A stretch of DNA of 64,000 nt, taken from contig NZ_CP018632.1 of assembly GCF_002215215.1 (NCBI RefSeq), positions 2,228,501 to 2,292,500 on the forward strand, in the 5' to 3' direction. Both the position numbers and the translations under genes were made by a program. This document shows, one piece after another, positions 979 to 33,120 of the stretch; position 1 is the stretch's first letter, and each line of letters opens with the position of its first letter. Below the pieces are notes generated by a model. That model saw only the letters and a program-made list of their open reading frames with translations, was not told where the DNA came from and searched no databases. The DNA is from Granulosicoccus antarcticus IMCC3135 (GTDB taxonomy: Bacteria > Pseudomonadota > Gammaproteobacteria > Granulosicoccales > Granulosicoccaceae).

Positions 979-980
979 TC

Positions 981-1973: not shown

Positions 1974-2126
1974 CAGCCTTGTCACAGGCTCGCATCAGAA
2001 AAGATTGCAGAACCTGATATTTCCGGCTGGGTATATTGAATAGCCCGATTTATCAATCAGAAAATAGCAGTAAACCTATCATTGATTTTCAACATGCTGA
2101 AATTTCGGCATTATTCAGGACATGAC

Positions 2127-11104: not shown

Positions 11105-12568
11105 TTAGAGGGCGGGTCGCATGATGACGTCATGTGCGAGTCCGCTCGACGAGCCCGGACGCGGTGCCGGTCTTGCGTATGCCACCAACCATGCCAGCCG
11201 ACGCCCCGACGGTGCGCGGCCAAGCATTGGGCAAAGCGCGTAAGCAAAACCGCGCGCTCCGATTTGAGAGGAGCGCAAAGTGAAGCGAGCTTTGGCAAAG
11301 TATGTATGGCCCTCGCCGGGTTGCCGACCTTCTTGAAGCGGCAGATGCTGCAAAGCGTCACCGTCCACCGCGAAGGGCAAAAAGTTTTCCGGCGGCGCTT
11401 TTCGAATAGCCAGTACGGGCTCGTCGGATTCGTCAAATTTGGGACGTGGCCGCCACTCCGTCCCGCGACCTGCGCTGTCGCGGACGGTGGTTTCCTCCAG
11501 CCACGCAAGATTGTCTGTAGGATCGGTGCGGAAAATCGCCTGTTCAAACGGCGCACCCTGCATCAATGGTGCAGTAGCAAGTAATGGCATCGCACCATTG
11601 TTATCACACCAACCGCGCAACGCATCGCTTTGGCCATTCTCGACAGTTGTAATGCGTCCGAATGTATCGGTCACCCGAACGGTGCCTATCGTCACTAGTG
11701 TATTGGTTGGCGTTTCGATATCACAGCGCCACATGAGCTGCCCCTGCTCGGCGAAGGACGCAGCGATCAATAGCTGGCCCAAATCTGAAGGGCCGGCAGG
11801 TACGGCGGTCCAGTCTAGTTGCGTATCTTCGAAACGCCACCACCTGTCAGGTTGAGCACCCGGAACAGAGAGACGTGAAAGCGGCTTCTTGAACACCGTC
11901 AGGGGCGCATCTCCTGCAGAACCGGTGAAATCAAACCAGCGCAGTTGGGGCCCCGTCGCTGCCTCAGCCTGCAAATTGGCACCATTCTTACCCGTTAACG
12001 TTGTTGCATGGCGACGGTGATCGTGATCAAAACTGTCATTAGAATCCATCTGTAAAACGGCCCATTCACGCACAAGATCTAGCAGATCGGCTGGCAAATC
12101 CAGATCATCGCTCGACCAAAGATTAATTACAGCGAGCCCGTCGATACGCCTGTTTTCCTCCATGCGGTTCAGTATCGGATGATTGTCTTGCAAGGTGACC
12201 TGATGCAACAGCGCCTGCGCAAGAGTGTCCGCTTTTGCGTGACGTTCAGCATGGGCGAGCAGGCTGTGACCCAGACGCAACCGATCACGCCAGTGGAAAT
12301 TGGCCCAAGTAGAGAGTGCGGCAGACGGAATCAAGTCAGGGGAGGCCAAACCGAGTGCGCGCACCGATGACAACGGTTCTGCACCGACTTGGACATCGGC
12401 TTGCAAGGGTGTCCCACCGTCAAAAAAGTCCATCTCGCCCACCCACCACTGGCGACCCAATAGCCACAGCGGATCACCCAGAGGCACCTGCGCACCGCTG
12501 ACAGGGCTGATATTGCGTGGGTCAGGCTCAATGCGTCCGACGCGGCGCCATGGACGTTCTTTGGTCAT
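11105..12568 (-). CDS. Operon gene 5: unknown conserved-looking protein (487 aa)
   Basis: Last gene of the five-gene operon. I chose the ATG at 12568 (MTKERPWRRVGRIEPDPRN), which has AAGGAG upstream and lies 14 bp after the gene 4 stop; an in-frame start at 12613 overlaps gene 4. The protein is soluble, Trp-rich and lacks a signal peptide. The segment DPLWLLGRQWWVGEMDFFDG near residue 35 is a very distinctive motif. I recall similar R-DPLW-L-RQWQ-GE sequences in unnamed proteins of other bacteria, but cannot verify that here. No catalytic motif is obvious. Its place in the operon suggests a part in one assembly with genes 1-4. Confidence 0.8.
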   Translation of the reverse strand: MTKERPWRRVGRIEPDPRNISPVSGAQVPLGDPLWLLGRQWWVGEMDFFDGGTPLQADVQVGAEPLSSVRALGLASPDLIPSAALSTWANFHWRDRLRLGHSLLAHAERHAKADTLAQALLHQVTLQDNHPILNRMEENRRIDGLAVINLWSSDDLDLPADLLDLVREWAVLQMDSNDSFDHDHRRHATTLTGKNGANLQAEAATGPQLRWFDFTGSAGDAPLTVFKKPLSRLSVPGAQPDRWWRFEDTQLDWTAVPAGPSDLGQLLIAASFAEQGQLMWRCDIETPTNTLVTIGTVRVTDTFGRITTVENGQSDALRGWCDNNGAMPLLATAPLMQGAPFEQAIFRTDPTDNLAWLEETTVRDSAGRGTEWRPRPKFDESDEPVLAIRKAPPENFLPFAVDGDALQHLPLQEGRQPGEGHTYFAKARFTLRSSQIGARGFAYALCPMLGRAPSGRRLAWLVAYARPAPRPGSSSGLAHDVIMRPAL

Positions 12569-12582
12569 GAGACGTTTCTCCT

Positions 12583-15500
12583 TTACATGTCGGATTCGTT
12601 GCGTTTCACACAATAACCAGCGGCCAGCGCTGCAATGTCATGCTCGACCATCAGCATCGGAAGCGTAGCGCCAAGATTGCGAATCAACGGCTCTATTTGG
12701 ATTTCGTCAGACCAATCGGTCGGGCCAAGCAGTCGGGCTTGTGCGCGATCAACGACTTGGTGAACAAGCCAGGCCACATTTGTCGGGTTCCATTGCTCGG
12801 AAGGGGTGGTACGAACACCAAGGATTGCCACCTGTGGTGCGCGGGCAGAGGGTGCATCAATATCAATCACGATGCCGGTTTCGCCCGTCAGTGGCGGTAT
12901 GGTTTCAGGCCACCCGTCTAGATACAGACCGGCAATTTGTCTCGAACGGGTGCTGATATCACCAACAACGACGCAGGATGCAGTAGCGGGATATACGTCG
13001 TCTTTCGTGCGGGGGCCACCGATCCAATCTGTTTCAGGGCCGTTAGGCACGGCGCCATCCTCGTTCCATTGCATTGCTGTAGCGGGCATGTCACCGTTGC
13101 GCGCACTCATCAAATCGGCCAGCGGTTCGAGAGTGTCCTGCACTGTCGCGCTGTCCTCCATCCAGTGCAGCAATGCACTTGGTCCAGCATGTTTCAGGCG
13201 CTTGCCCTGATCAAATACAGATGAATCAGCAAGCCGGAAAGGTAGGACAATCGGCAAATCGCCAAGCAGCGCCTTGAGCGCATCTTCGGGTGTTCCAGCG
13301 GCATCGGCATCGGTCAGACGTTGACCGAGAATGTTGCCGATTTCCATCAGTCCGCGCGGCCCGGTGGATACGTTCAGATTCCCCAAAATGCGGTCAAGTA
13401 TTGGGTGCGGGGTGATGAATGTATCCGCCAGGGTGATGCTATCTGTGCGAATCAAATTGCCTGGCAGAATCGGCAGCGTGATCGGGTCTCGGACGACTCG
13501 TTCGCCGATGCGCCTGAACTGTGCGCGCCATTTCTGAACTGTGCTGCGCGTCCGTGCCATCGCCTGGGTGATTGCATCCTCTCTCCAGCCCTCTTGTACT
13601 ACCACGCCAAGGTGTTGCGGCATTAGGGGCCCATGGTTGGCAAGCGCGAGAAAAAGCCTGCCTGCCAACCACAAAGTATCGTCGGCGGCACGGTCGAATG
13701 CGAAAGTTTGATGTGGCTCCAGGTTAAGACGGGTGCGCGCCTGCGACATCAATAAGGCGCGTCCGTCACGGCCCGGCGCCATGATATACGCCAGTTCCAG
13801 AGCCGAACTGACCATAGCGGACAACAGCAATGTTCTACCGTCCCTGGTGTTAACTTGTCCAGCGATCGGGCCCAGTAACAGGTTTGCAATTTGTGCAAGT
13901 TCCGGTGCAAGGATCGCTCGCAAATCTGTGCCGGATGCGCCGCTGTCCAGCCAGTCGGTTGCCAGAGCCACGTGAAGCGCGACGGTTTCACCGGCCATTC
14001 GCGCATGCGATACGCTTATATCATCTGGCGGAGCCGCGCCTGAACCGAGCCCCGCCAACGCCGCCTGAGCAGCTTCCGGGCGGCCTTCTGACAACGCTGA
14101 TGCACCTTCTGCTACAAGGACCTGTCGCAAGGCCGCCGCAGCAGCAGTCAAAGCACCGTGGGCATCGCTTACAGCAACTGGCACGTTCGACCACCTTTGC
14201 AACGAGGTATCGTCCAGAAATGCCAGGCCATCGAACAGTGCGGTGGCGGGCGTCGCATTTTGCGCAGGGTAAACGCCCGCAATGTCGGCCTCCAGCCCCG
14301 CTGCGCCCACCCGCTGCAAATGGTCGATGACCAAAACGGCAAGACTGTCCGATAGATCATCGCCTCGGCGCAGGGCCGCCAGAAGTGGCTGTGCGGTAGA
14401 CATGGTTTCGCGCGAAAGGTCGGCAGGCAGCAGTGCTTCAGAACCGGGATCATGCCACGCCAGACCTTTGCGCGCACGCCACAGGATTGCCAGCGTTGTC
14501 GCCAGTCTGGCAGACGGCGCGGTGATGTATTGCGCGGGCGCCTGCTGTGTAATTGGGACAGGCAGGGGGCCTTCGATAACACCGTACGCCCCAACACAAA
14601 GCGTGCGGTCGGCATTGCTGCGCTGAAGGTCCAGAATATCTTTCGCGGCAAGCTCTTCCCACACGTCCGCACGGTGGGACACTGTATCGAGAAGGCCAGC
14701 CATCACGCGATGGGTGATCCGGGGCGGTGTTTTCGCCAGCTGTTCGAGCTGGTCGGGCAGAACCATGAGAATCTCGAGCGCGTGGCGCGGAGTGCTCTGG
14801 GAACCTGCGGCATTCTCAGCCAAATCACGCAAAGGCCCCCCATTCAGGCGCAGAATCGCGGCGACAGCCAGACGCAGGCGTTCAGGCCCCTCTTTGGGAA
14901 TTTTCCAATGTCCGTGACCAAGAAGTTCAGAGCGCTCCTTAGAATTAGATGTTCGGTGCGCAGCCTCTATCTCGGCCAGAGCGCGCACGAATAGGTGTTC
15001 TGCAAAGACCGCCAGAAGCGATAAGGGACCATGCTCTATTTGCTCTTTAAGTTTGGGATCAAGCCGCTGCTGCAAGCGGCTCAATAACGGGCCTACTGCC
15101 AGAAGGTTTTCCAGATTTGGATCATTAAGTTCCAAAGTAGTGCTGTCCTCTGCCCCCGGCGCGACAAGCGACCCACACAGTTGTGCTGCAAAGTCGGAAA
15201 ACTGCGCACCATCACTGGTTGCGTGAGGGCCGGCGACACCATGGGCTGCGACCAACAGACCCGCACGGTCTGTGATGTTTGCAAAGGCCCGCTCTGCCGC
15301 CAGACGGCGATCCGGATCTGGCAAGTTGGTGAGGATATCCAGCACAAGTTCCGGAGGCAGAAAATCTCTTGCCCTCCAAATTTGGCCTCTATCGTGGCGG
15401 GCTAAAGTGGTGATTGTGGGTTCGTAGCCGGGCAAGGCCGCTTCGGACCTTCTAACATCACGGGATTCTTGCGCCAGCATCGCGCGCGATTCAATGATGG

Positions 15501-16845
15501 CACGCAGCGGGTCCATGCCGTTTCTTGGTGTCGCATCGAGTGCCGCGATGGTAAGTGCCACCGGATCCTCGCCGACACGTAAAATCGGCAACACACCGTC
15601 AGGGCGCAGTGCAAGAAAGCGTTTCTTGAAATTGTCGATCTGTTGTGACGTTTCTCCACTGCTCAGAGCAGGATCGGAATCAAACAAAAATTCGGCCGCC
15701 GGACGAACTGCCGCTTCAAAAATCAGATCTGCCAGAACGGTGCGCACCTGTTCGATATCGGGCGCATCCTGAGACAGAGGTACGGCATCAAGACCAAGGG
15801 CACCGGCAAGCCGCGCGCCGCCTGCGCGTGTGCGCTTGGTCGTAGGCGAAATCACCCCGCCTCCCTTGGTTGGCTGGCCGGGTTCCGGCAAGGTTACCCC
15901 ATTGGCGCGCTGGTTATGACTGTGCATAAGCGCCTCCAAGGCGGACTGGTCCTGCCTTGCATCCTCGCCAACGCCAAAAACGACGAGCCGGTCAAAACTG
16001 TCGCGGTCCGGCAGCGTCATTTCAAGTGCCATCCCGATCGCCAGCGCTGCGTCGAAATCCGACAACCAGCTAAGGGCAGCCGCACCAAGAAAGTCGGTAT
16101 CTCCGGGTGCCGGACCCACTGGCACCTCGCGTGGGATTTCGAGCCCCCGCGCGGCCGCGATGACCCGACCACGTCGAAATGCAGCACCAAACAGCCTGTG
16201 AGGCAGACACCGCGCGACCGGACGGGCGGTTGCCAGCGGTTCGTCAGCACGTTTGGTCGACCCAACCCGGATCTGTTCCAGAACAAAGCTGGCACGGGCG
16301 CTACCCAGCGCAGTGTCGATCGCAGGTCGCAATAGTGCGGCGGGCTGACCCGCCGCCACCGCAACAAGATACTGACGCGCGAGCAGCTCTTCGCTCGCGC
16401 TGATCCGACTCTCATCGGATGCAATATGTAGGCTATCAGGAAATGCGCGTAATCGCAGTTGCAAGCCTTCAAAGGCCGTCTCGATGCGCAATGGCAAAAG
16501 CAAGGTCGGCCCACCGGCAATCGTTCCGTCGAATGACAGATCAGACAATTTCAGAATCGGTTGTCCAGGCTGGTCGGGCCGCGCGCTCTGAACTGTGCCG
16601 CCAAGTACGGGCAGAATCTCAAGTAGCGCAAAGGTCATACCTACCTGCGCGCCTTCCGGGGCTGTCTGCGCGGCATTGCCCCCGACCAGAAGCCGCGTCA
16701 CGCTAGTGCGCGTTTCGCCTGCGGATGTGCTTACGCTCACCGAATCACCAACAGCTGCAGCGCCCCCTTTCAGCGTCCCCGTTACGACCCTGGTGCGGGC
16801 CCCCGCAAATCTAAAGATATCCTCTATGACTAGCGTAAAGCTCAT
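12583..16845 (-). CDS. Operon gene 4: giant protein with EF-Tu-domain-2-like N-terminus (1420 aa)
   Basis: A 1420-aa cytoplasmic-looking protein. Residues 1-80 (FTLVIEDIFRFAGARTRVVT, GTLKGGAAAVGDSVSV, then EGAQVGMTFALLEI) resemble the beta-barrel domain 2 of translational GTPases, but no GTPase domain precedes it. The remainder is a long Ala/Leu-rich, mostly helical sequence with short conserved-looking blocks such as RLPHRLFGAAFRRGR and PHQTFAFDRAADDTLWLAG. No signal peptide, membrane helix or catalytic motif is recognisable. The start overlaps the gene 3 stop by ATGA. A scaffold or repeat-like assembly protein is possible, but this is inference. Confidence 0.82.
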   Translation of the reverse strand: MSFTLVIEDIFRFAGARTRVVTGTLKGGAAAVGDSVSVSTSAGETRTSVTRLLVGGNAAQTAPEGAQVGMTFALLEILPVLGGTVQSARPDQPGQPILKLSDLSFDGTIAGGPTLLLPLRIETAFEGLQLRLRAFPDSLHIASDESRISASEELLARQYLVAVAAGQPAALLRPAIDTALGSARASFVLEQIRVGSTKRADEPLATARPVARCLPHRLFGAAFRRGRVIAAARGLEIPREVPVGPAPGDTDFLGAAALSWLSDFDAALAIGMALEMTLPDRDSFDRLVVFGVGEDARQDQSALEALMHSHNQRANGVTLPEPGQPTKGGGVISPTTKRTRAGGARLAGALGLDAVPLSQDAPDIEQVRTVLADLIFEAAVRPAAEFLFDSDPALSSGETSQQIDNFKKRFLALRPDGVLPILRVGEDPVALTIAALDATPRNGMDPLRAIIESRAMLAQESRDVRRSEAALPGYEPTITTLARHDRGQIWRARDFLPPELVLDILTNLPDPDRRLAAERAFANITDRAGLLVAAHGVAGPHATSDGAQFSDFAAQLCGSLVAPGAEDSTTLELNDPNLENLLAVGPLLSRLQQRLDPKLKEQIEHGPLSLLAVFAEHLFVRALAEIEAAHRTSNSKERSELLGHGHWKIPKEGPERLRLAVAAILRLNGGPLRDLAENAAGSQSTPRHALEILMVLPDQLEQLAKTPPRITHRVMAGLLDTVSHRADVWEELAAKDILDLQRSNADRTLCVGAYGVIEGPLPVPITQQAPAQYITAPSARLATTLAILWRARKGLAWHDPGSEALLPADLSRETMSTAQPLLAALRRGDDLSDSLAVLVIDHLQRVGAAGLEADIAGVYPAQNATPATALFDGLAFLDDTSLQRWSNVPVAVSDAHGALTAAAAALRQVLVAEGASALSEGRPEAAQAALAGLGSGAAPPDDISVSHARMAGETVALHVALATDWLDSGASGTDLRAILAPELAQIANLLLGPIAGQVNTRDGRTLLLSAMVSSALELAYIMAPGRDGRALLMSQARTRLNLEPHQTFAFDRAADDTLWLAGRLFLALANHGPLMPQHLGVVVQEGWREDAITQAMARTRSTVQKWRAQFRRIGERVVRDPITLPILPGNLIRTDSITLADTFITPHPILDRILGNLNVSTGPRGLMEIGNILGQRLTDADAAGTPEDALKALLGDLPIVLPFRLADSSVFDQGKRLKHAGPSALLHWMEDSATVQDTLEPLADLMSARNGDMPATAMQWNEDGAVPNGPETDWIGGPRTKDDVYPATASCVVVGDISTRSRQIAGLYLDGWPETIPPLTGETGIVIDIDAPSARAPQVAILGVRTTPSEQWNPTNVAWLVHQVVDRAQARLLGPTDWSDEIQIEPLIRNLGATLPMLMVEHDIAALAAGYCVKRNESDM

Positions 16846-19439
16846 GACCGTGGCCCCAATAAATCAGACCCGTGAAGCGCGACCATCGGGGGTCTTTCCA
16901 GTAATATTCCCGCCATAGCAGCAGCAGAAGCCCCCCACTCAAGGCCATCGAGCCTTATCCCAGCGAAATCAGCACTCGTCAAGAGGTTTGCATCTAGATC
17001 ATCCCAGTCAAGCGACTGCCAGCCACCTTCCGCCTTGATCTGTGCGGGGCTGCGTTTCGCCGCACCATTGCGCCCCCCCAGCCCAAAACTAAGTCCGTCC
17101 TGGGGCACCTCGAACACCAAAAATTGCCCTGCCGAACCGGCGGATGTGAGCTCGCCGCGCATGTTATCCGCGGATGCCTCAAACCCCAGATAAATCATGT
17201 CCAGGCCGATCTGGCCCATCGCAACTGGGTAAGACAAGTTTCTGTTAGGGTCTATTTCCCGTCGATCGTTCGACCATTTAGCAGCACACAGATAACATAA
17301 AGTATCTGGGTGCTTAAAGAATATCTCCGAACGGATGATCGCCATAAATCCAACTTTCCCGCCCCAATGCGTACCCAGTGGTGTCGAACCGCCCCACATG
17401 CTTACCGGTTCAAGATCAAAACTGGCAGGTCCGCCGGTATCCAGCACGGGAAAAGCGCGCCGCACGGGGCTTGGGTGTTTCGTCACCGGCAACCCACGCC
17501 AAACCAGCTCGCGCAGGAGTTCATGGTTCGCACCGACTGTGACCGCCTCTAACGCAGCACCGTCCAGTATCAATCCGACAACACTGTCTGCCGGAACGTC
17601 AGACAACCCGGGCGCCAGGGCGTTCGGGTCCAGATCAAAAAGTAGTTCTACGATGGGTTCAGGCCAGACCGGATCATGCAGAAGGCGACGCGGCAACGGT
17701 GTGCGTCCCATCTCAGGTGCCCCCTTTATTCGAGCGCGCAGACGCGGGGGAATGCTAACTGCCGGGTTGAGCGCGCCACGGATTTCGCGCACTGCCGCGC
17801 TTGAAATTGACGCAGTCAGCGGTTGAGGACCGGCAGGGTGCAATTGCGTTTCGGTGACGTCCACTATTGTAGTATCGATCACGCCGTCGCGGATTGTGTC
17901 GGCCTGCGCGCGCAGACTTTCCGGGCCTTCGAAGCGCATATGGCTGATCAAGGCCGCGGGATCGAGCCGTTTATCGTCCTGGATATAGATACGATCAGTG
18001 CGCCTTATGATGCGCTGCCAACCGCGCAAACCACCTGTTCCTGCAACATCATGCGCTTTGCGCGTCTCTTGACTGACGTTCACGATGGCATCAGCGAGCG
18101 TCCCGCCTGATCCTTTCCCCATCAGGCCACGGCTGACCCTGCGACGCAGCGCGGGATGACCAGCTGCCTCATATGCCGTGCCGCGGATGATCTTGGCACC
18201 CGAGCCGTCAACGGTCTTGATACGTGCCAGCGCCGGAGCGGCGAACCGGAGAAGCGCCTCGTCGGAGAGCTTTGCCATTCCGGCATAAAGAGCAGCCGCA
18301 AGGCGTTGTGACAGATGTCCGCGAGACAAGAGCGCGTTGGCGTCATCGATGGCACCCGCTTCATCGCGCAGAAAACCGATGATATTGTCCTGATGGCGCC
18401 GCACGACCTCTGCACCCAGCGATGCCATGATGCGATAGCTTGGCGTGCGATTAAGTTCGGCAAACCATTGCAGCTCAGTGTCCGGCAGGTCCGGACCTGC
18501 ATCGTTGACCTTATCGTTGACCTTTTTTGCGTAAAGGCGTCCGTAGCTTGGCAACGGCATGCGAAGCTGTCCTCGATCATCATGCGGCGACAAAGCATTG
18601 AGCAGAGCGGCGAGGGGTGAGAAGTCGGGCAAATCATTGACTAAAAGCGGGGCGCGGCGAGTTGTGGTGTCAGGCGGCAGGTTCAAGAGTTGAGTGGATT
18701 CTGCTGAAAGGGGCAGGGTTTCGGGATTGGCTTTCAACTCGATCCTTCGCAGGTCGCGCAGCATGTCTTCGGCACCTCTGGATGTGCCGGTACCAAAACG
18801 CCACCAGTGCAGGGCCGGCACTGTCAATGCCGCAGTGCCCGTATCCCACGCCGGGCCGCCACTCCCCTCGATGTTGGGATCCGGAACATCACCGAGGGCG
18901 GCAATCCGGCCTTTAACGGTCAGCGGAACAAGGGCCGCCAGATATCGGGTATTGGGATTAAGTTCCTGAGGGCAGAGCAACCGCGCGAAGGCGGCTCCGT
19001 CGCCGTTGTGAACATGTGCCATTAGATCGAACGCGACGATCGGTGGTAAACGCGCGCCGCCTCCCTTAATCGTAACCACAGGGTTGGGCACCCGTGTTGG
19101 ACTAAATTGTATTTCATCGTCATCAGGCATACACAGCAAACCAAGTGTCGGCTTGCCGGTAAACGAAAAGCTCCACGGTAGATTTGGATCGCGCAGTTCG
19201 AGATAGGCCAGCGCACCAGCGCGGTGATCGCCTGCGCCGTGCGCTGGTACCATCTTGCGGACGGCCCCTTGGTGCAACCCGACCATCTGGCCCGGACCGG
19301 CAAGCGGCAGCGTTACAGAAACAGTATCTGCCCCCTGATCGGTGGCCAGCTTGACCCCGAAACTGACGGTGCCGGCCGATGTAACCTGAGAGCGCAAGCC
19401 AGTCAGACGCCAGCTGTCAAAAGTGATGAATTGGCTCAT
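16842..19439 (-). CDS. Operon gene 3: unknown 865-aa protein
   Basis: An 865-aa protein with no signal peptide. The N-terminal third is beta-rich (FDSWRLTGLRSQVTSAGTVS, FGVKLATDQGADTVSVTLPL). About residues 155-230 hold CPQELNPNTRYLAALVPLTV, PAWDTGTAALTVPALHWWRF and GTG. That N-T-x-Y-x-A-x-LVP plus W-x-F-x-TG pattern recalls, from memory, unnamed proteins encoded beside DUF6603 genes in other bacteria. The middle is helical, and the C-terminus returns to beta (FMAIIRSEIFFKHPDTLCYL, then DMIYLGFEASADNM). It overlaps its neighbours by ATGA at both ends, so the subunits are probably made in fixed ratio. Confidence 0.82.
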   Translation of the reverse strand: MSQFITFDSWRLTGLRSQVTSAGTVSFGVKLATDQGADTVSVTLPLAGPGQMVGLHQGAVRKMVPAHGAGDHRAGALAYLELRDPNLPWSFSFTGKPTLGLLCMPDDDEIQFSPTRVPNPVVTIKGGGARLPPIVAFDLMAHVHNGDGAAFARLLCPQELNPNTRYLAALVPLTVKGRIAALGDVPDPNIEGSGGPAWDTGTAALTVPALHWWRFGTGTSRGAEDMLRDLRRIELKANPETLPLSAESTQLLNLPPDTTTRRAPLLVNDLPDFSPLAALLNALSPHDDRGQLRMPLPSYGRLYAKKVNDKVNDAGPDLPDTELQWFAELNRTPSYRIMASLGAEVVRRHQDNIIGFLRDEAGAIDDANALLSRGHLSQRLAAALYAGMAKLSDEALLRFAAPALARIKTVDGSGAKIIRGTAYEAAGHPALRRRVSRGLMGKGSGGTLADAIVNVSQETRKAHDVAGTGGLRGWQRIIRRTDRIYIQDDKRLDPAALISHMRFEGPESLRAQADTIRDGVIDTTIVDVTETQLHPAGPQPLTASISSAAVREIRGALNPAVSIPPRLRARIKGAPEMGRTPLPRRLLHDPVWPEPIVELLFDLDPNALAPGLSDVPADSVVGLILDGAALEAVTVGANHELLRELVWRGLPVTKHPSPVRRAFPVLDTGGPASFDLEPVSMWGGSTPLGTHWGGKVGFMAIIRSEIFFKHPDTLCYLCAAKWSNDRREIDPNRNLSYPVAMGQIGLDMIYLGFEASADNMRGELTSAGSAGQFLVFEVPQDGLSFGLGGRNGAAKRSPAQIKAEGGWQSLDWDDLDANLLTSADFAGIRLDGLEWGASAAAMAGILLERPPMVALHGSDLLGPRS

Positions 19440-22400
19440 GCGGCAACCTCCGTCGTACGGGCGACAGTAGAATTTTCGGAAGCTGCAGACGCACTGGCTT
19501 CGGTATGGCTGGTGGCTGGCCCGCCTGCGTTCAGATCGTTATCGGCATGGGTCCATGTTTCGGACTCGATGCTGATACGGCCCTGCGCCGTGGGGGCGGT
19601 TGGCATCCGGCTGGCGTCAGGCGCGCGCGGGGTAGCAATGGATAGCCGAACGCGGCGCGACTCGCCCGTGGTCTCATCTGCGGGCTGTACGATAAAACAG
19701 GCACGGCCCGCGTCAACGCGGGCTGTCGAGCCGGTATTGTCGGAATTCCCTTGCCCGAAACGCGCTCCTGACGGCAGGGCCTCGTAACTTGGACCCGACA
19801 GTTTTTGCGCGTCCGACACGGCTAGGAACTGTGCCCGTGCAAATGGTGCGCGCAGGGTTTCGGCCACCTCCAGACGGGACTGCCCAAGCTGCAATCCTGT
19901 GATGCCGAAGCGGTGCGGTCCTTCGATGGGGTTGGCACCGACGGTTGCCAGATCAAGATCCAGCGGGATCAGTTTTTGATCCACCGACAGTTGCGCACCA
20001 GGCGGCACCAGACCGTCGGCGTGATCCATGATGGCATCACCCTGATCGGATTCCCCCGACCAATTGCGGGGGTCGCCTAACGCAGCATAGAGGATTTCGC
20101 GCGCGCGCACAGTTGAAAGTGGCGTTGATTGCTCTTGTCCGATGGTCTTGGAAAACTTGGCAGTAATGTCGAAAAACAGAATCTCAATCGTGGCCTCACC
20201 ATTGACGATCCAGGGCCCCGGCCCGCGCAGCCGTCCCCGGACAGACACTGAACACAGGTTGGTACTGCCGCGCCTGATTGAGGCGGAGGCATAAATTTCC
20301 AGATCGAGGCCGAATGGCTCGAAGATCACCAATGCGTCGAAACCCAGTTCGCCTGTAAGCGTGAAACCGGCTGCACCAGCTTTTAACATGGCCCGCGCGC
20401 CAAGCTGAATCGAGTTAGAGGTTATCGCAAAATAGCCCTCCAACAGCAGCGTCATTCCCTTGGTAGACAGATCGACTCCAAGGCGCGGCACATCAGGAAA
20501 ACCAGCGGGGCGTTCAAAGGCTGGGTGCAGCCCACCAACGGAAAAGGCGAGCGTCGGCATCCCGCCCCAGCGAGTCAGCACGGCAAAGCCACCTTTGACA
20601 GGCAGCCCCTGAACCTGACTGTCGAACAACGCGCCTTCGGCTTCGAGGGTTCGGGCGGTAAAATCAATGACGCCAAAGACGTTCATGTTAAGCTTAACTA
20701 GTGCTATTTTTGGGTCCGGCACGGCCACCGCGACCTTCCCAATTAGCACCAGCCGCAGCGGATCGGGCAAGGTCAGGGCAAGTGCCAGATCGAGCGAAAC
20801 GAGTTCTTTCGGTTGCCCCCATCCCAATTTGACCGACGGGCCGAACACATGCTGGCCGCGCGTAATCGGGAACATCCCGCTTGCCAGTTTGGCGATCCTC
20901 GGTGCATCTCCAATCGGATCCTTGGGTGACAGGATATCGCCCGCCGTGCCTGCGCGCACGGCCTGTTTCAAGACATCGATGTTGACATCGCGGTGCAATC
21001 CCAACAGCCCACCCACGCTGCTCAGCGTAAATCCGAAGCCCAGCGGAACCGGCGAAAACCGGCCCGCGACAGTTACAAGTAACGAATAGCCATCAGCGCC
21101 ATCCAGCATTTTTGTGTCGAGCATACCGAATGCGGACAAGCCGAGTTCGGCCACATTGAGCGACAGGGTGCCGACATACTGCCCCGTATCTGCGTTGAAC
21201 GCGATGTAGCCACCACCTTTCACCGGCCCGGCCTCCAGCGTCAGGCCAAGGCCGCTAGGTTGCTTGAACTTGACCACAAGGGCGCTGACATCTGCCAGTG
21301 AGGTCGGCAATCCGCCCTCCAAATTGACGCCGATGCCCTCGATCGTCACACCCAGCGGGCCGAGCTTTGCCTTTCCCGACAAAACCAGCGCAAGGGTTTG
21401 CCTTGCCGCTTCAGTGCCTTCAGCTGCATCTAGCGCCATGCCCACCGACAAGATCGTCACAATCGTCCCAATGCTGAGACCTGCGGGGATTTCGACGCCC
21501 AACCCGCCACCGCGTTGCAAATAGAAACCTGTTTTAACGTCATAACCCAAGGTCAGCGAAATTTGGGTCTCAAGCGGTTTGGGCACCAATTTGCCGATAA
21601 ACCCATCGGGGTCAGTTGGCGCAATAATGACCTTAGCATCCTCAAGCGTCGCCTCAATCGAAAGGCTTTGGGTTTTGCCTGTCTGGAAAATCGAGCGAAA
21701 AACTGGCCGCGCGGCGTTGATCGCCAATGGGCCAAGCGCGATACGCTCCTTGTATTGGGGGGGGGACTGCTTGATCGTGATACTGGCTTTTGCGGCGACA
21801 GCGTCCGAGGCGGCGGTTGCCTCAAAGCTCAGCCCTCCCGGCCTGGCAATCAGACCAAAAGGCAGGTTGCCAGAGAAATCGCTAGAAAATTCGGCTTGCC
21901 ATCCCGCATCAAGATCGAGCACTTTGCCGGCGTCGCCTTGCATCCGTAAAAGGGCCAGGATGCCGGGCTTGGTCGGACCATCTGCGGCAAGTTCGGCGAT
22001 AACAGCGGTAAGACTCAGTTCGACAGTGTCACCCAAAGCATCGTCAGGCAGAGGAAGCTCTGCCGTCAACGCAGCGAGGTCGGCGTCGGGGGGGATGGCC
22101 GCAAAACTGTGTTGTGGGCTTTCGATCATCCGTGTTGTCAGTCCAAATTCGGCGGCCAGTCCCTCGAGATGGGCAAAAAGCAACTCTGCATCCAGCCCTG
22201 TATTCCATGAAATTGTCTGTGCAAGAGCGGTTTGAGGGCTACTTATCGCAGGCCAGATTTTTGCGGCATCGAATTGACCGCGATTTTGCTTACGCACCGC
22301 GTCTTCATTGCCGATGCCCAGAAGACAGCAACCATGCCAGATCGCGGGCGCACGGTCGCGCAAATAGCGCACGGTAAGATGCTCAAGAAGTGCCGCCGCG

Positions 22401-22786
22401 ATTTCATTCGGCGGTGGCAACCCCCCAACGCTGCCGATACCGTCGGTGACGCTCGTAAGGGCGCTGCGAATGGCGGTAAGGCCTCTTTGCAGATCAGGCG
22501 ATTGACCTTTGTTCAGTGCATCCAGAACGGTCCAAAGCGCCTGACCGGCGGCGACTAAATCCGCAGTGGCACTTGTGATGTCGTCAAGATGCTCCCGTAA
22601 TTCGAGGCCTGTCGCCACCAGCAACGACGTCATTTCTGCTGCGGGGTCGTGGGGCATGTCCTCCATCATTTCGGTCGTGACATTGAACCAGCGCAATGGC
22701 TTGTCAGGACGTTGCGTAACGATAGCTACCGGCGCGAAAAACTGCACCAATTCGCGAAGGATATCGTTCTCGCCAATGTCACTCAT
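19436..22786 (-). CDS. Operon gene 2: DUF6603-domain protein (1116 aa)
   Basis: The central half (about residues 400-900) matches the DUF6603 pattern: GGGYIAFNADTGQYVGTLSL, then SLLVTVAGRFSPVPLGFGFT, LSSVGGLLGLHRDVNID, ITRGQHVFGPSVKLGWGQPK, then GGFAVLTRWGGMPTLAFSVG and GLHPAFERPAGFPDVPRLG. The region is made of many short amphipathic beta strands rich in Gly and resembles a long beta-sheet or lipid-groove-like structure. The first 300 residues are helical. No signal peptide is seen, so it is probably cytoplasmic unless exported by a non-Sec route. The function of DUF6603 is unknown. The start overlaps the gene 1 stop by ATGA. Confidence 0.82.
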   Translation of the reverse strand: MSDIGENDILRELVQFFAPVAIVTQRPDKPLRWFNVTTEMMEDMPHDPAAEMTSLLVATGLELREHLDDITSATADLVAAGQALWTVLDALNKGQSPDLQRGLTAIRSALTSVTDGIGSVGGLPPPNEIAAALLEHLTVRYLRDRAPAIWHGCCLLGIGNEDAVRKQNRGQFDAAKIWPAISSPQTALAQTISWNTGLDAELLFAHLEGLAAEFGLTTRMIESPQHSFAAIPPDADLAALTAELPLPDDALGDTVELSLTAVIAELAADGPTKPGILALLRMQGDAGKVLDLDAGWQAEFSSDFSGNLPFGLIARPGGLSFEATAASDAVAAKASITIKQSPPQYKERIALGPLAINAARPVFRSIFQTGKTQSLSIEATLEDAKVIIAPTDPDGFIGKLVPKPLETQISLTLGYDVKTGFYLQRGGGLGVEIPAGLSIGTIVTILSVGMALDAAEGTEAARQTLALVLSGKAKLGPLGVTIEGIGVNLEGGLPTSLADVSALVVKFKQPSGLGLTLEAGPVKGGGYIAFNADTGQYVGTLSLNVAELGLSAFGMLDTKMLDGADGYSLLVTVAGRFSPVPLGFGFTLSSVGGLLGLHRDVNIDVLKQAVRAGTAGDILSPKDPIGDAPRIAKLASGMFPITRGQHVFGPSVKLGWGQPKELVSLDLALALTLPDPLRLVLIGKVAVAVPDPKIALVKLNMNVFGVIDFTARTLEAEGALFDSQVQGLPVKGGFAVLTRWGGMPTLAFSVGGLHPAFERPAGFPDVPRLGVDLSTKGMTLLLEGYFAITSNSIQLGARAMLKAGAAGFTLTGELGFDALVIFEPFGLDLEIYASASIRRGSTNLCSVSVRGRLRGPGPWIVNGEATIEILFFDITAKFSKTIGQEQSTPLSTVRAREILYAALGDPRNWSGESDQGDAIMDHADGLVPPGAQLSVDQKLIPLDLDLATVGANPIEGPHRFGITGLQLGQSRLEVAETLRAPFARAQFLAVSDAQKLSGPSYEALPSGARFGQGNSDNTGSTARVDAGRACFIVQPADETTGESRRVRLSIATPRAPDASRMPTAPTAQGRISIESETWTHADNDLNAGGPATSHTEASASAASENSTVARTTEVAA

Positions 22787-24597
22787 GGCACTTCCGCGTA
22801 TTCGATAGTTCGGGTGCCGTGTTTATAGGTGAGGACCAATTTAAAGAACTGGCCCTTAACATTCTCATAATCACTCGCGAGAAGATTGATTATCCCTGTG
22901 CGGAACGCCGCCTCGTCAAATCCCTTAACTTTCTCGTCGACAATATTATTCAAGCCATCGCCTATAAAACTCATCGACAACTCCATCTCCTTTGGCAGAG
23001 CAGGAGCAGCATGCGTGAGAGAGATGCTAAGTGCTTGTGAGCCCGTAGGCGTGGCTTTGAAGCCAACAGAAGTTTGCAACGAATAGAGACGCTCGATCAT
23101 GGTGTCGGTATTTATGGCGCCAGGCTTGCCAAAGTCATAGGCGACGTGGCCCGGTTTTTCTTTCGTGGAATCTCTGAAACGCCTACCAAATGCACAACGT
23201 TCCGCGAATATTAGCAGTTGGTGATCCTTTGTGAAGTTCACCAGATAGAGACCGAGAAGCGTCAGCCCAAGAATAATGCCGGTCGCCAGTGAAATGATGA
23301 GACCCGCCGGACCAGCGGCTGCTGACGCGACACAAAATGAAAGATAGAGCGAAAACGCGACTCCGACCACAGAGGACAGTCCCAGAACCGCTGCCCCAAA
23401 AGCGACCGACAGATCACCGTTGTGTTCAGCCGAAGAGAACTTTGCGTGGGCGTCAGCTACCTCAAATGCGAGCATCGGAACGGCCAAGACAGAGCAAAGC
23501 TTACCGGCAACTTTTTTAATTCCATCGCCTCCTAACGTTGTAGCGGCAGTGCCGATCAGCTTGATTGCCTCACCCAGTGTCTTGCCGGCTTTTTTTATAT
23601 CAATCTTGCCTTTTGGTGACGTGCTGAGCTCTAGCAGCCCGGTCGTGGTTTTGAGAAATCCAGTGATCAGGCTGATTGGAATACTTACCGCTTTCAGTCC
23701 CGCCATCAGTTTGGTCGCGACGGTGGGATTTAATCCCTTCAATCCAGCATTAGAGACAATCTCACTCATTAGCTTCACCTTTTCAGCAGGGTTTGCCGCT
23801 TTACTAATTTCCTCAATGTCATTAAGACCAAATAGTAACTTGGAATAGTAATTGAACATCAATTCGCTCTGACTGGTCTGTTGCGGTTCCAGATGCGTGA
23901 TGATTGTCAGGATTGCACCAAGCCGCGCTTTCGCCGTGAGGACCCACTTCAGAATTACCTCGACCTTCATCTCACCCAAAAAACTCGCTTGCTCCAATAC
24001 CGATTTGTCGTTCAGCTTGAACTCCGGCTTGTTGTTGTCCGGATTTAACTGATCAGGTAGATTGTTAAGCAAGACTTCGAAATTGATAGGCTTGAAGATT
24101 GACTCACGGCCTTCGCTAGCATCCAGTATGAAACGGTCAGATTCGGAGCTGGAGTTCCCAGTAGTCGTTATGCGAGGATCGTAAAGATCGATCAAATGAA
24201 TGACGTCCGTCAGACGGTCAACCACATCAAGCTGCCTGAAAACATTCACTTTGCCCCAAGCATTGATAAATGCCGGTGAACGAAAGCAAACGATGACTTT
24301 GGACGCTAAGATCTCTAAATCTTTGCGCGACTTGGTGCGCTGCCATTCGATGTGCTGCACTAATTTAGGCAAAAGCGGTTCTTTAAATTCAACACTGGTA
24401 GGCGTTGCTGTCGCGCTAAGCGATGCTTGAGTGTCACGGATCGCATAGGACAGCCTAAAGGCGTCGTCCATAGTCATTGTGCGCAAATCACCGGGGATGC
24501 CAAAGGAAGTTTCTTTATTCAGGCGTTCCTGAAAATATTCAACAGATCCCTTGAAGCGCCTAATTGCTTCCAATGCGTTTCTAATTTCATCGCTCAT
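22783..24597 (-). CDS. Operon gene 1: helical protein with C-terminal hydrophobic hairpin, membrane-active candidate (604 aa)
   Basis: First gene of the operon, with GAGGGG upstream of the ATG at 24597. Residues 1-360 are largely helical and charged. Residues about 364-380, 396-424 and 428-455 are strongly hydrophobic, Gly/Ala-rich helices (AAVLGLSSVVGVAFSLYLSF, AGLIISLATGIILGLTLLGL). A soluble C-terminal domain of about 140 aa follows. There is no signal peptide. A hydrophobic hairpin inside a helical soluble protein is seen in alpha-helical pore-forming toxins, but also in ordinary membrane proteins. I recognise no family. It appears less GC-rich than genes 2-5, which may mean a separate origin. 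Confidence 0.8.
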   Translation of the reverse strand: MSDEIRNALEAIRRFKGSVEYFQERLNKETSFGIPGDLRTMTMDDAFRLSYAIRDTQASLSATATPTSVEFKEPLLPKLVQHIEWQRTKSRKDLEILASKVIVCFRSPAFINAWGKVNVFRQLDVVDRLTDVIHLIDLYDPRITTTGNSSSESDRFILDASEGRESIFKPINFEVLLNNLPDQLNPDNNKPEFKLNDKSVLEQASFLGEMKVEVILKWVLTAKARLGAILTIITHLEPQQTSQSELMFNYYSKLLFGLNDIEEISKAANPAEKVKLMSEIVSNAGLKGLNPTVATKLMAGLKAVSIPISLITGFLKTTTGLLELSTSPKGKIDIKKAGKTLGEAIKLIGTAATTLGGDGIKKVAGKLCSVLAVPMLAFEVADAHAKFSSAEHNGDLSVAFGAAVLGLSSVVGVAFSLYLSFCVASAAAGPAGLIISLATGIILGLTLLGLYLVNFTKDHQLLIFAERCAFGRRFRDSTKEKPGHVAYDFGKPGAINTDTMIERLYSLQTSVGFKATPTGSQALSISLTHAAPALPKEMELSMSFIGDGLNNIVDEKVKGFDEAAFRTGIINLLASDYENVKGQFFKLVLTYKHGTRTIEYAEVP

Positions 24598-24784: not shown

Positions 24785-26059
24785 GGGGACCTCTATCAAT
24801 CACGAATTTCGGTGATTTTCTAACTCAGGCTCATGATTTACCAATTTGACTGGAAAATTATTCACTCCGTATCCGTGAGTTATTGAGCGGCAACTTCATC
24901 AATTGCGTGTAATAGACGAATAACCAGTCGATTATTCAGTCTTTAGCGGTTTTTTTTTCCTCTTCATCAAGCCAGCTGCCCTTGCAACCAGGAAAATCGC
25001 TTCAAGTTGTATGTCAGATTCATCAGCCCAATTTTCACCCCGGCCCGAGCCTTGCCAATAGTTCGAACGAGCATCCCGCCCATCGCCTCCTGCGTGCCGA
25101 AGACATGCTCGACTCGACATCGCACTTTGGAACGGTTGTAATTGGCCTGCTGGGCCCTGTTCGACAGCGGCTTGTTGCGCCTGCCTTTGGTATTGATATG
25201 ACTACGATAGCCGTTAGCATTCAGTGATTGTTCTTGCTCTGTAGAGCGGTAGGCGGAGTCAGCCCAGACGTTGGCATTAGTGTTGTCAGGATCGAGTAAA
25301 ACATCGAATACCTGGCTATCGTGCACCGAGGCGGTAGTGACCTCGTAGCGACGAATCAGCTTGTTCTCATTATCGACGCTGACATGGTTTTTGTAACCGT
25401 AGTAATTGACGAAATTCTTCTTGGTCCAGCGCGCATCCACGTCCTTTTGCCTGAGAACTGTGTCCGACTTGTCCTCCCAACCCTCAGGGGTCTGACCCTT
25501 CTTGATTGCCGCGTTCTCATCGCGTGAATTTCGCTGGCGAGGTGCTGTGACAAAGCTGGCGTCCACAATCTGACCCTTACGAGCGATGAAACCTGCGTCA
25601 TTGATCTGCTGCATCAGCAGATCGAACAATTGCTCCACTAACTCTTTCTCCTTGAGTCGCTCACGGAAGAGCCATACCGTGCGGGCGTCAGGTACCTGTC
25701 CCTCGGGGCTCAAGTCAAGAAAACGGCAGAACGAATAACGATCACGTATCTGATATTCAATTTGCTCGTCAGAAAGATTGTAAAGATGCTGCAGTACCAG
25801 GATCTTGAACATCAGAACCACGTCGTAAGGCTTTCTACCGGCATTGCTCTTGCGCTTTTTCTCGTGAACGACGTTCAACAACGTCCTGAATGCTTCCCAA
25901 TCGACGCTGCGCTGAAGCTTTGGCAACGGATCACCCAGCTTTTCAAGCAGCTGTAGGCGATTGTCAAGATCAAAAAAGCCTGGTTGCATAGTCAATCTCT
26001 CAATAAAGGGCCTTGTGTTGTATTATAGCGCTAAATTTGATGGATTTTTAGAAGCCCCC
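24785..26059 (-). mobile_element. IS5-family insertion sequence (1275 bp), complete
   Basis: Imperfect terminal inverted repeats begin GGGGACCTCTATCAAT on the left and GGGGGCTTCTAAAAAT on the right (read inward), flanked by a TTAA duplication (24781-24784 and 26060-26063). TTAA fits the YTAR target of the IS5 group. The transposase reads on the minus strand. The element sits just upstream of the five-gene operon. Confidence 0.85.
24967..25989 (-). CDS. IS5-family transposase
   Basis: A 340-aa DDE transposase. Visible landmarks are the N-terminal RKPYDVVLMFKILVLQHLYN helix, QIVDASFVTAPRQRN (first Asp), NANVWADSAYRS (second Asp) and the RCRVEHVFGTQEAMGG (Glu) block. I chose the ATG at 25989 (MQPGFFDLDNRL) over an in-frame TTG at 25995. 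The protein is full length and appears functional. Confidence 0.92.
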   Translation of the reverse strand: MQPGFFDLDNRLQLLEKLGDPLPKLQRSVDWEAFRTLLNVVHEKKRKSNAGRKPYDVVLMFKILVLQHLYNLSDEQIEYQIRDRYSFCRFLDLSPEGQVPDARTVWLFRERLKEKELVEQLFDLLMQQINDAGFIARKGQIVDASFVTAPRQRNSRDENAAIKKGQTPEGWEDKSDTVLRQKDVDARWTKKNFVNYYGYKNHVSVDNENKLIRRYEVTTASVHDSQVFDVLLDPDNTNANVWADSAYRSTEQEQSLNANGYRSHINTKGRRNKPLSNRAQQANYNRSKVRCRVEHVFGTQEAMGGMLVRTIGKARAGVKIGLMNLTYNLKRFSWLQGQLA

Positions 26060-26373: not shown

Positions 26374-27681
26374 GGGTCTTCCGGTTTCCGTGTGGGTAAG
26401 TTAGCCTTGATGGCATGAATGATAAAGACCTGTACCAGCAAATTCTGGGGATTCCGAAGCCATGGAGCGTCACTGACGTCGGTTTGAAGTTGGACGGTGG
26501 CAAGATTGAAGTGCGTGTCAGTGCTCCGTCCTCAGCTGACATGCACTGTCCGGTGTGCCAGAAGGTATGCCCACGCCATGACAAGCGAGAGCGTCGATGG
26601 CGTCACTTGGATACGTGCCAGTACCAGACAGTCCTGGTTGCGCAGGTGCCGCGCGTGAAGTGCGACGAGCATGGAATCAAGCAGATCGATGTCCCTTGGG
26701 CAGAGGAGCGTTCTCGATTCACGGCTTTGTTCGAGATACTGGTTATCGACTGGCTTAAGGAGGCTTCTGTCAGTGCTGTTGCCAGGCAACTGGAAATACG
26801 GTGGGATGCCATTGACGGGATCATGCAAAGAGCCGTTGCACGCGGCCTCAAGCGTCGTGATGATACGGGACTGTATCCGGATCTGGATGTCGACGAAACG
26901 GCTTTTCGTAAACGCCACGACTATGTCACTGTTGTCAGCGATCCTGGTACTGGCGCGGTGATACATTTGTGCGACGATCGCAAGAAGCAAAGCCTGAAAG
27001 ACTTCTATAGCAGTCTGAGCGAAGAGCAACGTATCGGAATCAGAACGATATCGATGGACATGTGGCCTGCGTTCATCAGTGCCACACTGGAGGGGCTTCC
27101 CGGTGCCGATAGCAAGATTTGCTTTGATCGATTTCACGTGGCTCAGCATCTCGGTAAAGCCGTCGATAAGGTCCGCCGGGACGAGCACAAGAAGCTTAAG
27201 GCAGAAAACAATGCTGTCCTCACGGGGACCAAGCATGACTGGCTGCGAGCCGAACAGAACGTACCGAAGAAACGACTCGGCGCTTTCAGGAAGCTGTGCA
27301 ATAGCACGTTGAAAACGGCCCGCGCCTGGGCGTGGAAAGAGGCAGCAGCGTACCTGTGGCAGTACCGATCTCGCACTTGGGCTATCAAGGCGTGGAACCG
27401 TTGGTATTCAGGAGCAATTAGAAGCCGCTTGGAGCCTGTCAAAAAGGCTGCCCGAATGATCAAGAAGCATCTCTGGGGAATCGTCAATGCTATCGTTACT
27501 GGCACAACCAACGCCGGTGCCGAGAGTATCAATAGTCGCATCAAGATGGTGAAGGTCGGATCACGCGGTTTCAGAAACAAGAACCGATTCAAGGCAGCGA
27601 TCTATTTTCATTTGGGCGATCTCGACCTGTATCCAGAAACGGCTACAGAATGAGACTACCCACACGAATGTCGGAAGACCC
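26374..27681 (+). mobile_element. ISL3-family insertion sequence (1308 bp)
   Basis: Terminal inverted repeats start GGGTCTTCCG and contain CGTGTGGGTA at both ends (26374 rightward; 27681 leftward). No 8-bp direct repeat is present (GTTATTGT on the left, AAAAAAGG on the right), so flanking DNA was lost or rearranged after insertion. It encodes one full-length transposase. Confidence 0.85.
26415..27653 (+). CDS. ISL3-family transposase
   Basis: A 412-aa protein with an N-terminal zinc-finger region (CPVCQKVCPRHDKRERRWRH), the helix-turn-helix SAVARQLEIRWDAIDGI, then DDE catalytic blocks (DLDVDETAFRKRHDYVTVV, ISMDMWPAFISA, DRFHVAQHL and the late TTNAGAESINSRIKMV with its Glu). Full length for the family. 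It ends about 28 bp before the right inverted repeat. Confidence 0.92.
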   Translation: MNDKDLYQQILGIPKPWSVTDVGLKLDGGKIEVRVSAPSSADMHCPVCQKVCPRHDKRERRWRHLDTCQYQTVLVAQVPRVKCDEHGIKQIDVPWAEERSRFTALFEILVIDWLKEASVSAVARQLEIRWDAIDGIMQRAVARGLKRRDDTGLYPDLDVDETAFRKRHDYVTVVSDPGTGAVIHLCDDRKKQSLKDFYSSLSEEQRIGIRTISMDMWPAFISATLEGLPGADSKICFDRFHVAQHLGKAVDKVRRDEHKKLKAENNAVLTGTKHDWLRAEQNVPKKRLGAFRKLCNSTLKTARAWAWKEAAAYLWQYRSRTWAIKAWNRWYSGAIRSRLEPVKKAARMIKKHLWGIVNAIVTGTTNAGAESINSRIKMVKVGSRGFRNKNRFKAAIYFHLGDLDLYPETATE

Positions 27682-31735: not shown

Positions 31736-33120
31736 GAGCTATAGTCAATAGTGGTGTCCAGACAGTTGAATCAAGCGACTTTCTGATTGATCTCCTGCAC
31801 TTCAACGCCGTCGTTGAATTTGATTCCGGTGATAACCTTGGCCAAGTAGTCAAAGCCCCTGAGTCTGCGCCAGCGCTTCTCGGCGCATAGTCCAAGCTTG
31901 AACATCATGTGCAGCATCGTGTCTCGTGACAGACAGCCTTTGGAGCGCTTGGTCCGATGCCGGATGGTGGCAAAGGTTGACTCGATCGGGTTGGTCGTAC
32001 GGATGCTCTGCCAATGTTTTGCTGGGAAATCATAGAACGTCAGAAGCTCCAGCTGATCCTTGAGTAGACACTGTGCCACTTTCGGGTACTTGTCCGCGTA
32101 CGTTTCGATGAATAAATCGAAGGCTTTCACAGCGTCGGCCTTGGTCTCCGCCATCCAGATATCTTGCAATCGCTTCTTGGCTTTTGGCTGTGACGACTTG
32201 GGCAGCTTGTTGAGCACGTTGGCTGTCTTGTGCACCCAGCAACGTTGTTGCCGTGTGTCAGGATAGATCTGGTCGACGGCTGCCCAGAAGCCCAAAGCAC
32301 CGTCTCCGATAGCGAGATTGGGAGAGTTCATGCCGCGAGCCTTGAGCTGAGCAAGACCTCACGCCAACTCTGCGTCGATTCCCGGGTGCTGTCCTCGATA
32401 GCCAGAATCTGCTTCTTTCCTTGCTCATTTACGCCGATAACCGTTAGTGCACACAGTTTGCTGTCGTCACTGCGAAGACCTGAGTGGATACCGTCAACCC
32501 AGACGTATACCCATTGATCTTTATCCAGTGGGGCCTGGCACCAAGCCTCGTACTCCTCGCCCCATACCTGCTTGAGTCGTGAGATTGTGCTGGCTGATAA
32601 GCCCTTGGCTTCCGGGCCGACCAGCACTTCCAGAGCGCTCTGCATCTCGCCGCTGGAGATGCCTTTGAGGTACAGCCAGGGCAAGGCAGCTTCGATTGAT
32701 TTCGTTCTGCGAACATAGGGTGGCACCAGCGCTGAGCGAAAGGTGACCGGCTCTCCATCACGTGCTCGCACCTTCGGTACTTTCACTGTGACGGGGCCGA
32801 TTCCGGTCTGGATCTCACGCTCCGGCTGGTGGCCATTGCGCACGACTGCCGCACGTCCATTGGCCAAGGTTCTGTCCTGGAACTGCGACAGAAAATCACT
32901 GACTTCTGCTTCGATGGCTTGGGCTAGCAACTGCCGTGCTCCTGTCTGCAATAGCTGAGTCAAGAGATCTGTATTTTCGTCTCGACCTTCGAACTGAACA
33001 ACGTTATCCTTCTTCATGGCGGTGTTTCTCTGTTGGTGGATTGAACGTGTGGTAACGCCAATCAACCAGAAACGCCGCTTTTTTTCAACCTTGCTCAGAC
33101 ACCAGAATCAACCATACCTC
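31736..33120 (-). mobile_element. IS256-family insertion sequence (1385 bp), frameshifted
   Basis: Imperfect inverted ends read inward from GAGCTATAGTCAAT (left) and GAGGTATGGTTGAT (right), both continuing into TGGTGTC. A perfect 9-bp duplication ATCATATCG flanks it at 31727-31735 and 33121-33129, as expected for IS256-type transposition. The transposase gene is broken by one frameshift. Confidence 0.9.
31771..33017 (-). pseudogene. IS256-family transposase with one frameshift
   Basis: The N-terminal part from ATG 33017 (MKKDNVVQFEGRDENTD) runs to SWREVLLSSRLAA and a stop at 32328. The C-terminal part resumes in another frame at the normal sequence KARGMNSPNLAIGDGALGFW and ends at 31771. Removing one frameshift near 32350 would restore a typical mutator-type transposase of about 415 aa, with the C-terminal RTTNPIESTFATIRHRTKRS block intact. 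It could be a recent mutation or a sequencing error. Confidence 0.85.

Follow-up and report, generated by a model that had tools for sequence, protein, structure and literature searches.

A conserved four-gene DUF6603 operon with an interchangeable upstream gene: a candidate effector-carrying assembly of bacteria and haloarchaea

We analysed a stretch of 64,000 nucleotides of the genome of Granulosicoccus antarcticus IMCC3135 (contig NZ_CP018632.1, positions 2,228,501 to 2,292,500; the whole stretch is called the window below) for the meaning of a five-gene operon, g1 to g5, built around a gene for a DUF6603 protein, g2. The last four genes form a core that recurs in the same order in bacteria and haloarchaea, and the first, which is not a part of the core, fills a swappable slot in this genome. 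Our best explanation, to which we give a probability of about 0.5, is that g2-g5 are the invariant part of an undescribed assembly that would carry a single interchangeable effector, keep it inactive or present it. We know of no description of such a system, and DUF6603 and its accession PF20248 are not mentioned in the open-access PMC literature (preprints lie outside that scope). Despite the wide spread of the core, three of its four proteins in the window score above no Pfam or NCBIfam cut-off, and the fourth is recognised by a domain of unknown function.

The operon comprises the following features, all on the minus strand (ORF, open reading frame; KD19, the hydropathy value used throughout):

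22783..24597, minus: g1, ORF of 604 aa that fills the variable slot, with a VasX/BTH_I2691-like helical region (candidate pore-former)
23230..23415, minus: hydrophobic hairpin of g1, residues 395-456, KD19 maximum 2.24
22783..22786, minus: ATGA overlap of g1 and g2, read directly in the sequence
19436..22786, minus: g2, 1116 aa; N-terminal helical bundle, DUF6603 beta-meander and C-terminal part (from the ORF, Pfam and the predicted structure)
19808..21475, minus: DUF6603 domain of g2, residues 438-993 (PF20248, E 3.2e-108)
19436..19439, minus: ATGA overlap of g2 and g3, read directly
16842..19439, minus: g3, core protein of 865 aa; beta N-domain, helical middle and mixed C-domain in the predicted structure
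16842..16845, minus: ATGA overlap of g3 and g4, read directly
12583..16845, minus: g4, core protein of 1420 aa
16588..16842, minus: EF-Tu-domain-2-like barrel, g4 residues 2-86; below threshold in the window, above the cut-off in a homologue (locus L026)
12569..12582, minus: 14-bp gap between g4 and g5 with a ribosome-binding-like AGGAG, read directly
11105..12568, minus: g5, core protein of 487 aa counted from ATG, or of 502 aa if it began at the in-frame TTG at 12613
12434..12475, minus: DPLWLLGRQWWVGE motif of g5, residues 32-45, from an alignment of g5 proteins

The layout of five ORFs, three overlaps and one gap given in a preliminary description of this DNA was borne out by ORF calls and direct reading, while the fixed stoichiometry that it drew from the layout cannot be deduced from gene overlaps. 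The GC content of the whole operon is 0.574 against 0.478 in the remaining window, and by gene it is 0.485 in g1 and 0.578-0.591 in g2-g5. The host genome (7.78 Mb in one contig) has a single DUF6603 gene; such a gene was found in three of 95 sampled genomes, this one among them, and in none of the 26 same-genus genomes of the sample.

Recurrence of the g2-g5 core

An operon-type g2 alignment, with a single peptide pattern, was used to scan 84,980 species genomes, and 395 stretches were confirmed to encode a g2 relative. The best 76 of the 395 were retained as loci and joined by seven plasmid loci, giving a set of 83 over which hidden Markov models (HMMs) built from the window genes were iterated. 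With these models g3 was found in 77 of the 78 loci that extend 900 nt or more beyond g2, the single failure being a Leptolyngbya locus (L100) with the gene order g4-g5-g2, and g4 in all 71 loci that extend at least 7 kb beyond it. A g5 gene was present in each of the 50 core-bearing genomes searched, which were reached via 50 of the 76 loci, and the medians of gene spacing in core loci are -1, +2 and +2. By record name the 83 loci fall in Actinomycetota (22), Pseudomonadota (16), Bacteroidota (14), Nitrospirota (10), Acidobacteriota (6), Methanobacteriota (haloarchaea, 3) and Myxococcota, Ignavibacteriota, Chloroflexota and Cyanobacteriota (1 each), with one bacterium lacking a phylum name and the seven plasmid loci making up the rest. 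This spread over nine named bacterial phyla plus haloarchaea takes in nitrite- and ammonia-oxidisers, streptomycetes, Acidobacteriota and Bacteroidota, among others, and it agrees with the earlier suggestion that relatives of genes 2, 3 and 5 may travel together in other phyla. Plasmids gave the same picture in a tblastn search of 72,556 sequences: g5 matched nine records and g2 matched 15, all nine g5 records lay inside the g2 set, and the order g2-g3-g4-g5 was found in the seven plasmid loci (haloarchaea, streptomycetes, Rhizobium, Paraburkholderia), the Rhizobium locus having g3 and g4 each broken into two.

Does the association also hold when g5 is the starting point? Among 98 Nitrospiraceae genomes g5 occurs in 28, DUF6603 in 28 and both in 27, the two discordant cases being fragments only. 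Among 199 Streptomyces genomes g5 occurs in 15 (13 of them with a full-length g5), DUF6603 in 25 and both in 13; all 13 genomes with full-length g5 have DUF6603, the g5 pieces in the two genomes without it are short, and 12 of the 25 DUF6603 genomes gave no g5 match, with only seven candidates per genome scored for g5. These reverse tests lead us to conclude that g5 predicts DUF6603 and not vice versa. A further tie between two of the genes is the fusion of g4 and g5 in one ORF in two Streptomyces loci, L144 and L145, which were chosen because the frame containing g5 was about 2,000 aa long.

Recurrence of the order in dozens of loci, together with dN/dS (the ratio of nonsynonymous to synonymous substitution rates) of 0.05-0.40 for core genes in five locus pairs (for the Nitrospira pairs, paralogues may be mixed in the g2 values), places the operon beyond chance. 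Same-order co-occurrence of all five families, proposed earlier as the test of a single system, was seen for g2-g5 but not for g1, to which the HMM matched in 2 of 91 mapped loci; the idea of one conserved, uncharacterised system accordingly survives for four genes and not as a five-gene machine. Downstream of g5 no family recurs, the largest BLASTP group having five members (ORFs of at least 90 aa in 40 downstream stretches).

Two side observations concern gene copies. Leptolyngbya PCC 7375 (G537) has a second g5 in an ordinary g2-g3-g4-g5 unit (L149), and two copies of g2, a median of about 2.4 kb apart, stand in seven Nitrospira-type loci (L051, L053, L060, L062, L069, L073 and L097).

The upstream slot and its occupant in the window

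A gene coupled to g2, that is, an ORF of 230 aa or more on the same strand and -45 to +110 nt from it, is present in 55 of the 82 loci with room for one, and 23 of these ORFs overlap g2. Counting more widely, within 350 nt of g2, gave 63 ORFs, which together with g1 fall into 23 BLASTP groups. Pfam and NCBIfam scans covered 60 of the 63 (four of the 60 are probably not slot genes), and the occupants identified include PhoD (11), PLD (9), M64 (7), tyrosinase (2) and BTH_I2691-like (2) proteins, one each of M14, subtilase and beta-lactamase2, and others too. The catalytic motifs are largely intact: HKD is found in all nine PLD proteins, in at least two copies in eight, and HExxH in all seven M64 proteins. 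GDSG occurs in six of the seven members of a group that we label trypsin-like on the strength of this motif and one NAL1 match (its bearer is not listed), and three more groups look like cysteine peptidases, as judged by eye. No immunity gene was seen between slot and core, where coupled slot genes abut or overlap g2.

Slot occupants have also changed against the history of the core. A quick tree of g2 with 51 rows (the window plus 50 loci) requires at least 22 changes of slot type; the least possible number is 10, and the mean for shuffled labels is 34.7. Fully supported sister cores carry different slots in Variovorax (PhoD) and Methylocaldum (M64), as do the sister cores of two copies in one Pyrinomonadaceae metagenome-assembled genome (MAG), one with PLD and the other with a beta-lactamase-like protein.

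In the window the slot is held by g1, which matches the NCBIfam model NF041559 (BTH_I2691/VasX) with E 2.2e-8 and 33.1 bits, below the cut-off of 150. The match spans g1 residues 259-473 and positions 640-837 of the 858 in the profile, leaving the N-terminal part unmatched, and the hydrophobic segments between residues 297 and 456 fall within it. The hydrophobic hairpin first noticed in this gene is real, the KD19 mean lying above 1.6 in segments 395-429 and 423-456. The work on Tke5 (PMC12909789) describes the BTH_I2691/VasX family as pore-forming toxins of the type VI secretion system (T6SS) with an N-terminal MIX motif; the Pfam scan of g1 yielded no MIX family, no dedicated MIX model having been run. 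From this likeness g1 is probably a VasX-like pore-forming effector. Its homologues lie directly upstream of g2 in loci L026 and L027, and the window g2 groups (support 100) with those of Roseobacter and Marivivens, both of which carry g1 homologues. Beyond the two HMM matches there was one partial match, in a Halobellus slot protein, and the slot protein of the archaeon Halalkalicoccus likewise has a weak BTH_I2691/VasX likeness in the late part of the profile (E 2.7e-10).

Core proteins, a possible mode of action and its rivals

What might the four core proteins do? In the window none of them has a known enzyme domain or a solved relative by sequence, and g3, g4 and g5 also have zero matches in PADLOC or PHROGs. 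The DUF6603 core noticed at the outset in g2 is beyond dispute (362.9 bits against a curated Pfam cut-off of 27), and it is predicted to form a long antiparallel beta-meander. The fold of g3 is predicted with confidence (pLDDT 84.7, pTM 0.71), and comparison of the model with solved structures gave no convincing match. The barrel proposed for the start of g4 is upheld by a homologue and not by the window protein itself: the window g4 falls below the Pfam cut-off (E 0.082), whereas that of Roseobacter MH60115 (L026) exceeds it (32.4 bits against 30.3). The Marivivens g4 has the same N-terminal stretch in the alignment, yet no Pfam match, and the barrel is missing from two more distant aligned proteins (L031 and L048). 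In g5, seven residues of the motif (D32, W35, L37, R39, Q40, G44 and E45) are invariant among 25 aligned proteins. Five core homologues were scanned for extra domains, which appeared as a lamin tail domain (LTD) in one haloarchaeal g5 and FG-GAP in one Streptomyces g3; three g5 proteins of haloarchaea are annotated with lamin tail domains.

None of g1-g5 has a hydrophobic stretch with KD19 above 1.6 within its first 45 residues, which supports the initial view that all five lack a signal peptide, although no dedicated signal-peptide program was run. By hydropathy a signal-like N-terminus is likewise lacking in 76 of 76 g3, 54 of 54 g4, 20 of 20 g5, 85 of 86 g2 and 59 of 60 slot proteins, counts that use the longest frames, in which a later true start might conceal a signal.

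We arrive at an effector carrier because order and co-occurrence of the core, the g4-g5 fusion, a polymorphic slot whose largest enzyme groups keep intact catalytic motifs, and slot swaps against the core tree all point that way, as does the departure of the GC content of g1 from that of the core. The proteins g2-g5 (3,888 residues in the window) would form an invariant multiprotein assembly, binding each other and the effector, and the first gene of the unit would supply the one interchangeable effector for them to carry, restrain or present: here a VasX-like pore-former, elsewhere a PLD protein, a PhoD-like phosphatase, a metallo- or serine peptidase, a tyrosinase or another protein. The beta-meander of g2 may be the membrane-facing, lipid-facing or enclosing part. 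Where would such a particle act? That the effectors are mostly hydrolases or a pore-former, that extracellular-type modules occur in two core homologues, that hardly any member has a signal-like start and that no gene family recurs after g5 suggest a particle made in the cytosol that acts elsewhere. Because neither core nor effector has a Sec-like start, we infer that it would act outside the producer after lysis or via an unknown export route.

Several observations weigh against this explanation. In 27 of the 82 loci there is no coupled upstream gene, or a doubtful one only (in L081 and L096 the upstream gene lies just beyond the coupling limits). Swapping is not frequent, because slot types cluster more on the g2 tree than shuffled labels do. 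No docking domain common to nine slot families was found with hhalign in 36 pairs (probability 27.7 for c6-c8 and below 1 for the other 35), and tyrosinase is not known as a typical toxin. An extracellular-type module was present in only two of the five scanned core homologues, and no export machinery was seen. Finally, superposition of the g2 model on solved folds gives a root-mean-square deviation (rmsd) of about 11-15 Å across 216-340 residues, which we take as topological likeness only. The storage body that the preliminary description also entertained is favoured by no observation.

The main rival, which we consider unlikely, is an intracellular system resembling abortive infection, in which the core would sense a phage or other invader and free the slot effector inside the producer. 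Swappable peptidases, PLD proteins and pore-formers with no evident immunity gene would suit suicide effectors, the core is found on plasmids, and the surroundings of the operon in the window are rich in transposases and include two genes of defence type or candidacy, listed here together with one further gene set near the start of the window:

7327-8655, 24967-25995, 26415-27653 and 31771-33065: transposase genes flanking the operon; the stretch at 31771-33065 reads as two ORFs and by eye resembles a frame-broken transposase
34182-36662, plus: protein of 826 aa with a SIR2-like domain and an nSTAND NTPase; best PADLOC match ThsA
37224-38123, plus: protein of 299 aa matching the PADLOC candidate family PDC-S02 (E 4e-49)
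37-3500, plus: consecutive genes of peptidase-like, deacylase-like and class-III aminotransferase type (the profile scan covered the aminotransferase), which we take to be an ectoine-degradation type set

By its domains the 826-aa SIR2/nSTAND protein is a defence-type gene near the operon. However, none of g1-g5 matched any PADLOC family, the window core proteins have no NTPase or nucleotide-signalling domain in Pfam, tyrosinase, M64 and M14 would be unusual in such a role, and the LTD and FG-GAP modules of two core homologues fit it poorly.

Somewhat less likely still is a surface or extracellular enzyme scaffold for matrix or nutrient processing, in which the core would anchor an exported hydrolase and would not be a weapon. 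The hydrolases and tyrosinase among the slot occupants would agree with this, as would the extracellular-type modules of one haloarchaeal and one Streptomyces homologue, but nearly all core and slot proteins have no signal-like N-terminus and the VasX-like pore region of g1 is a poor fit.

That the core is cargo of an extracellular contractile injection system (eCIS) appears very improbable. CIS_tube is found in 24 of 51 core-bearing genomes, and in a Flavihumibacter MAG (L136/G534:C48:56300-64300) one copy sits some 7 kb beyond g5 on the downstream side, which is anecdotal given the controls: at matched threshold, 9 of 13 carriers in Streptomyces have CIS_tube, compared with 119 of 199 genomes overall, the figures for Nitrospiraceae are 3 of 27 carriers and 8 of 98 genomes, and CIS_tube is absent from the window's genome. 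Because carriers show no enrichment in either clade, a link to eCIS is not supported. Equally improbable is an ordinary T6SS effector standing by chance ahead of an unrelated four-gene operon, for which the NF041559 match speaks. Against it, that match does not reach the N-terminal part of the profile, the g1 homologues of L026 and L027 hold the same position, and TssC/VipB (PF05943) is absent from the window's genome (G000) and from both genomes with g1 homologues (G489 and G490), being found in 1 of 51 core-bearing genomes. As a candidate T6SS effector g1 was rejected on its 33.1 against 150 bits, the unmatched N-terminus and the lack of TssC/VipB in its genome.

Relation to known systems

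The closest known family to g2 is that of its DUF6603 domain, for which the Pfam entry gives no function. The domain is not confined to this operon: giant proteins have it, and so do Streptomyces genomes that gave no g5 match. Giant DUF6603 ORFs of about 3,250-3,390 aa stand in another gene context in six of the eight loci L018-L025 (genomes G056, G059, G352, G183, G326, G368, G162 and G337), an arrangement that looks like a second, different conserved DUF6603 operon. In L022-L024 the ORFs next after the giant one measure about 680-710, 320-345 and 1,020-1,280 aa, the last one lying on the opposite strand in L023. The predicted meander of g2 resembles the large up-and-down beta sheets of ApoB100, the PapC/FimD ushers, LptD and porins; from the outer-membrane barrels (porin, usher, LptD) g2 differs in having no signal-like start, the similarity being one of topology at an rmsd of about 12 Å. 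With the BTH_I2691/VasX effectors g1 shares the late part of the profile, but it differs from them in its sub-cut-off score, its unmatched N-terminus and a host without TssC/VipB.

The eCIS and Tc toxin complexes resemble the proposed assembly in being big multi-gene assemblies with a variable payload and no signal peptides. They differ in that none of their sheath, tube, baseplate, Tc or RHS domains was found in g1-g5 by Pfam and PHROGs scans, and in the missing eCIS enrichment; the Pfam scan gave DUF6603 and sub-threshold matches only, with no TcA, TcB (SpvB) or TcC (RHS). Polymorphic toxin systems exchange effectors at one fixed position next to conserved genes, a feature that the swapped slot shares. 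In our case, however, the effectors are separate genes without a detectable common domain, no immunity gene was seen between slot and core or conserved after g5 (ORFs of at least 90 aa), and Pfam found no RHS, contact-dependent inhibition (CDI) or T6SS domains in the window core proteins.

We tentatively suggest, as a possibility and not as our expectation, that these loci encode a new class of effector-delivery particle of bacteria and haloarchaea, unrelated to contractile injection systems, Tc/RHS cocoons and the T6SS, with one payload per locus and a four-protein carrier that has no known solved relative. Should the core indeed be a carrier, it would represent a novel type of weapon or delivery machine, with the variable slot as a ready-made catalogue of natural payloads.

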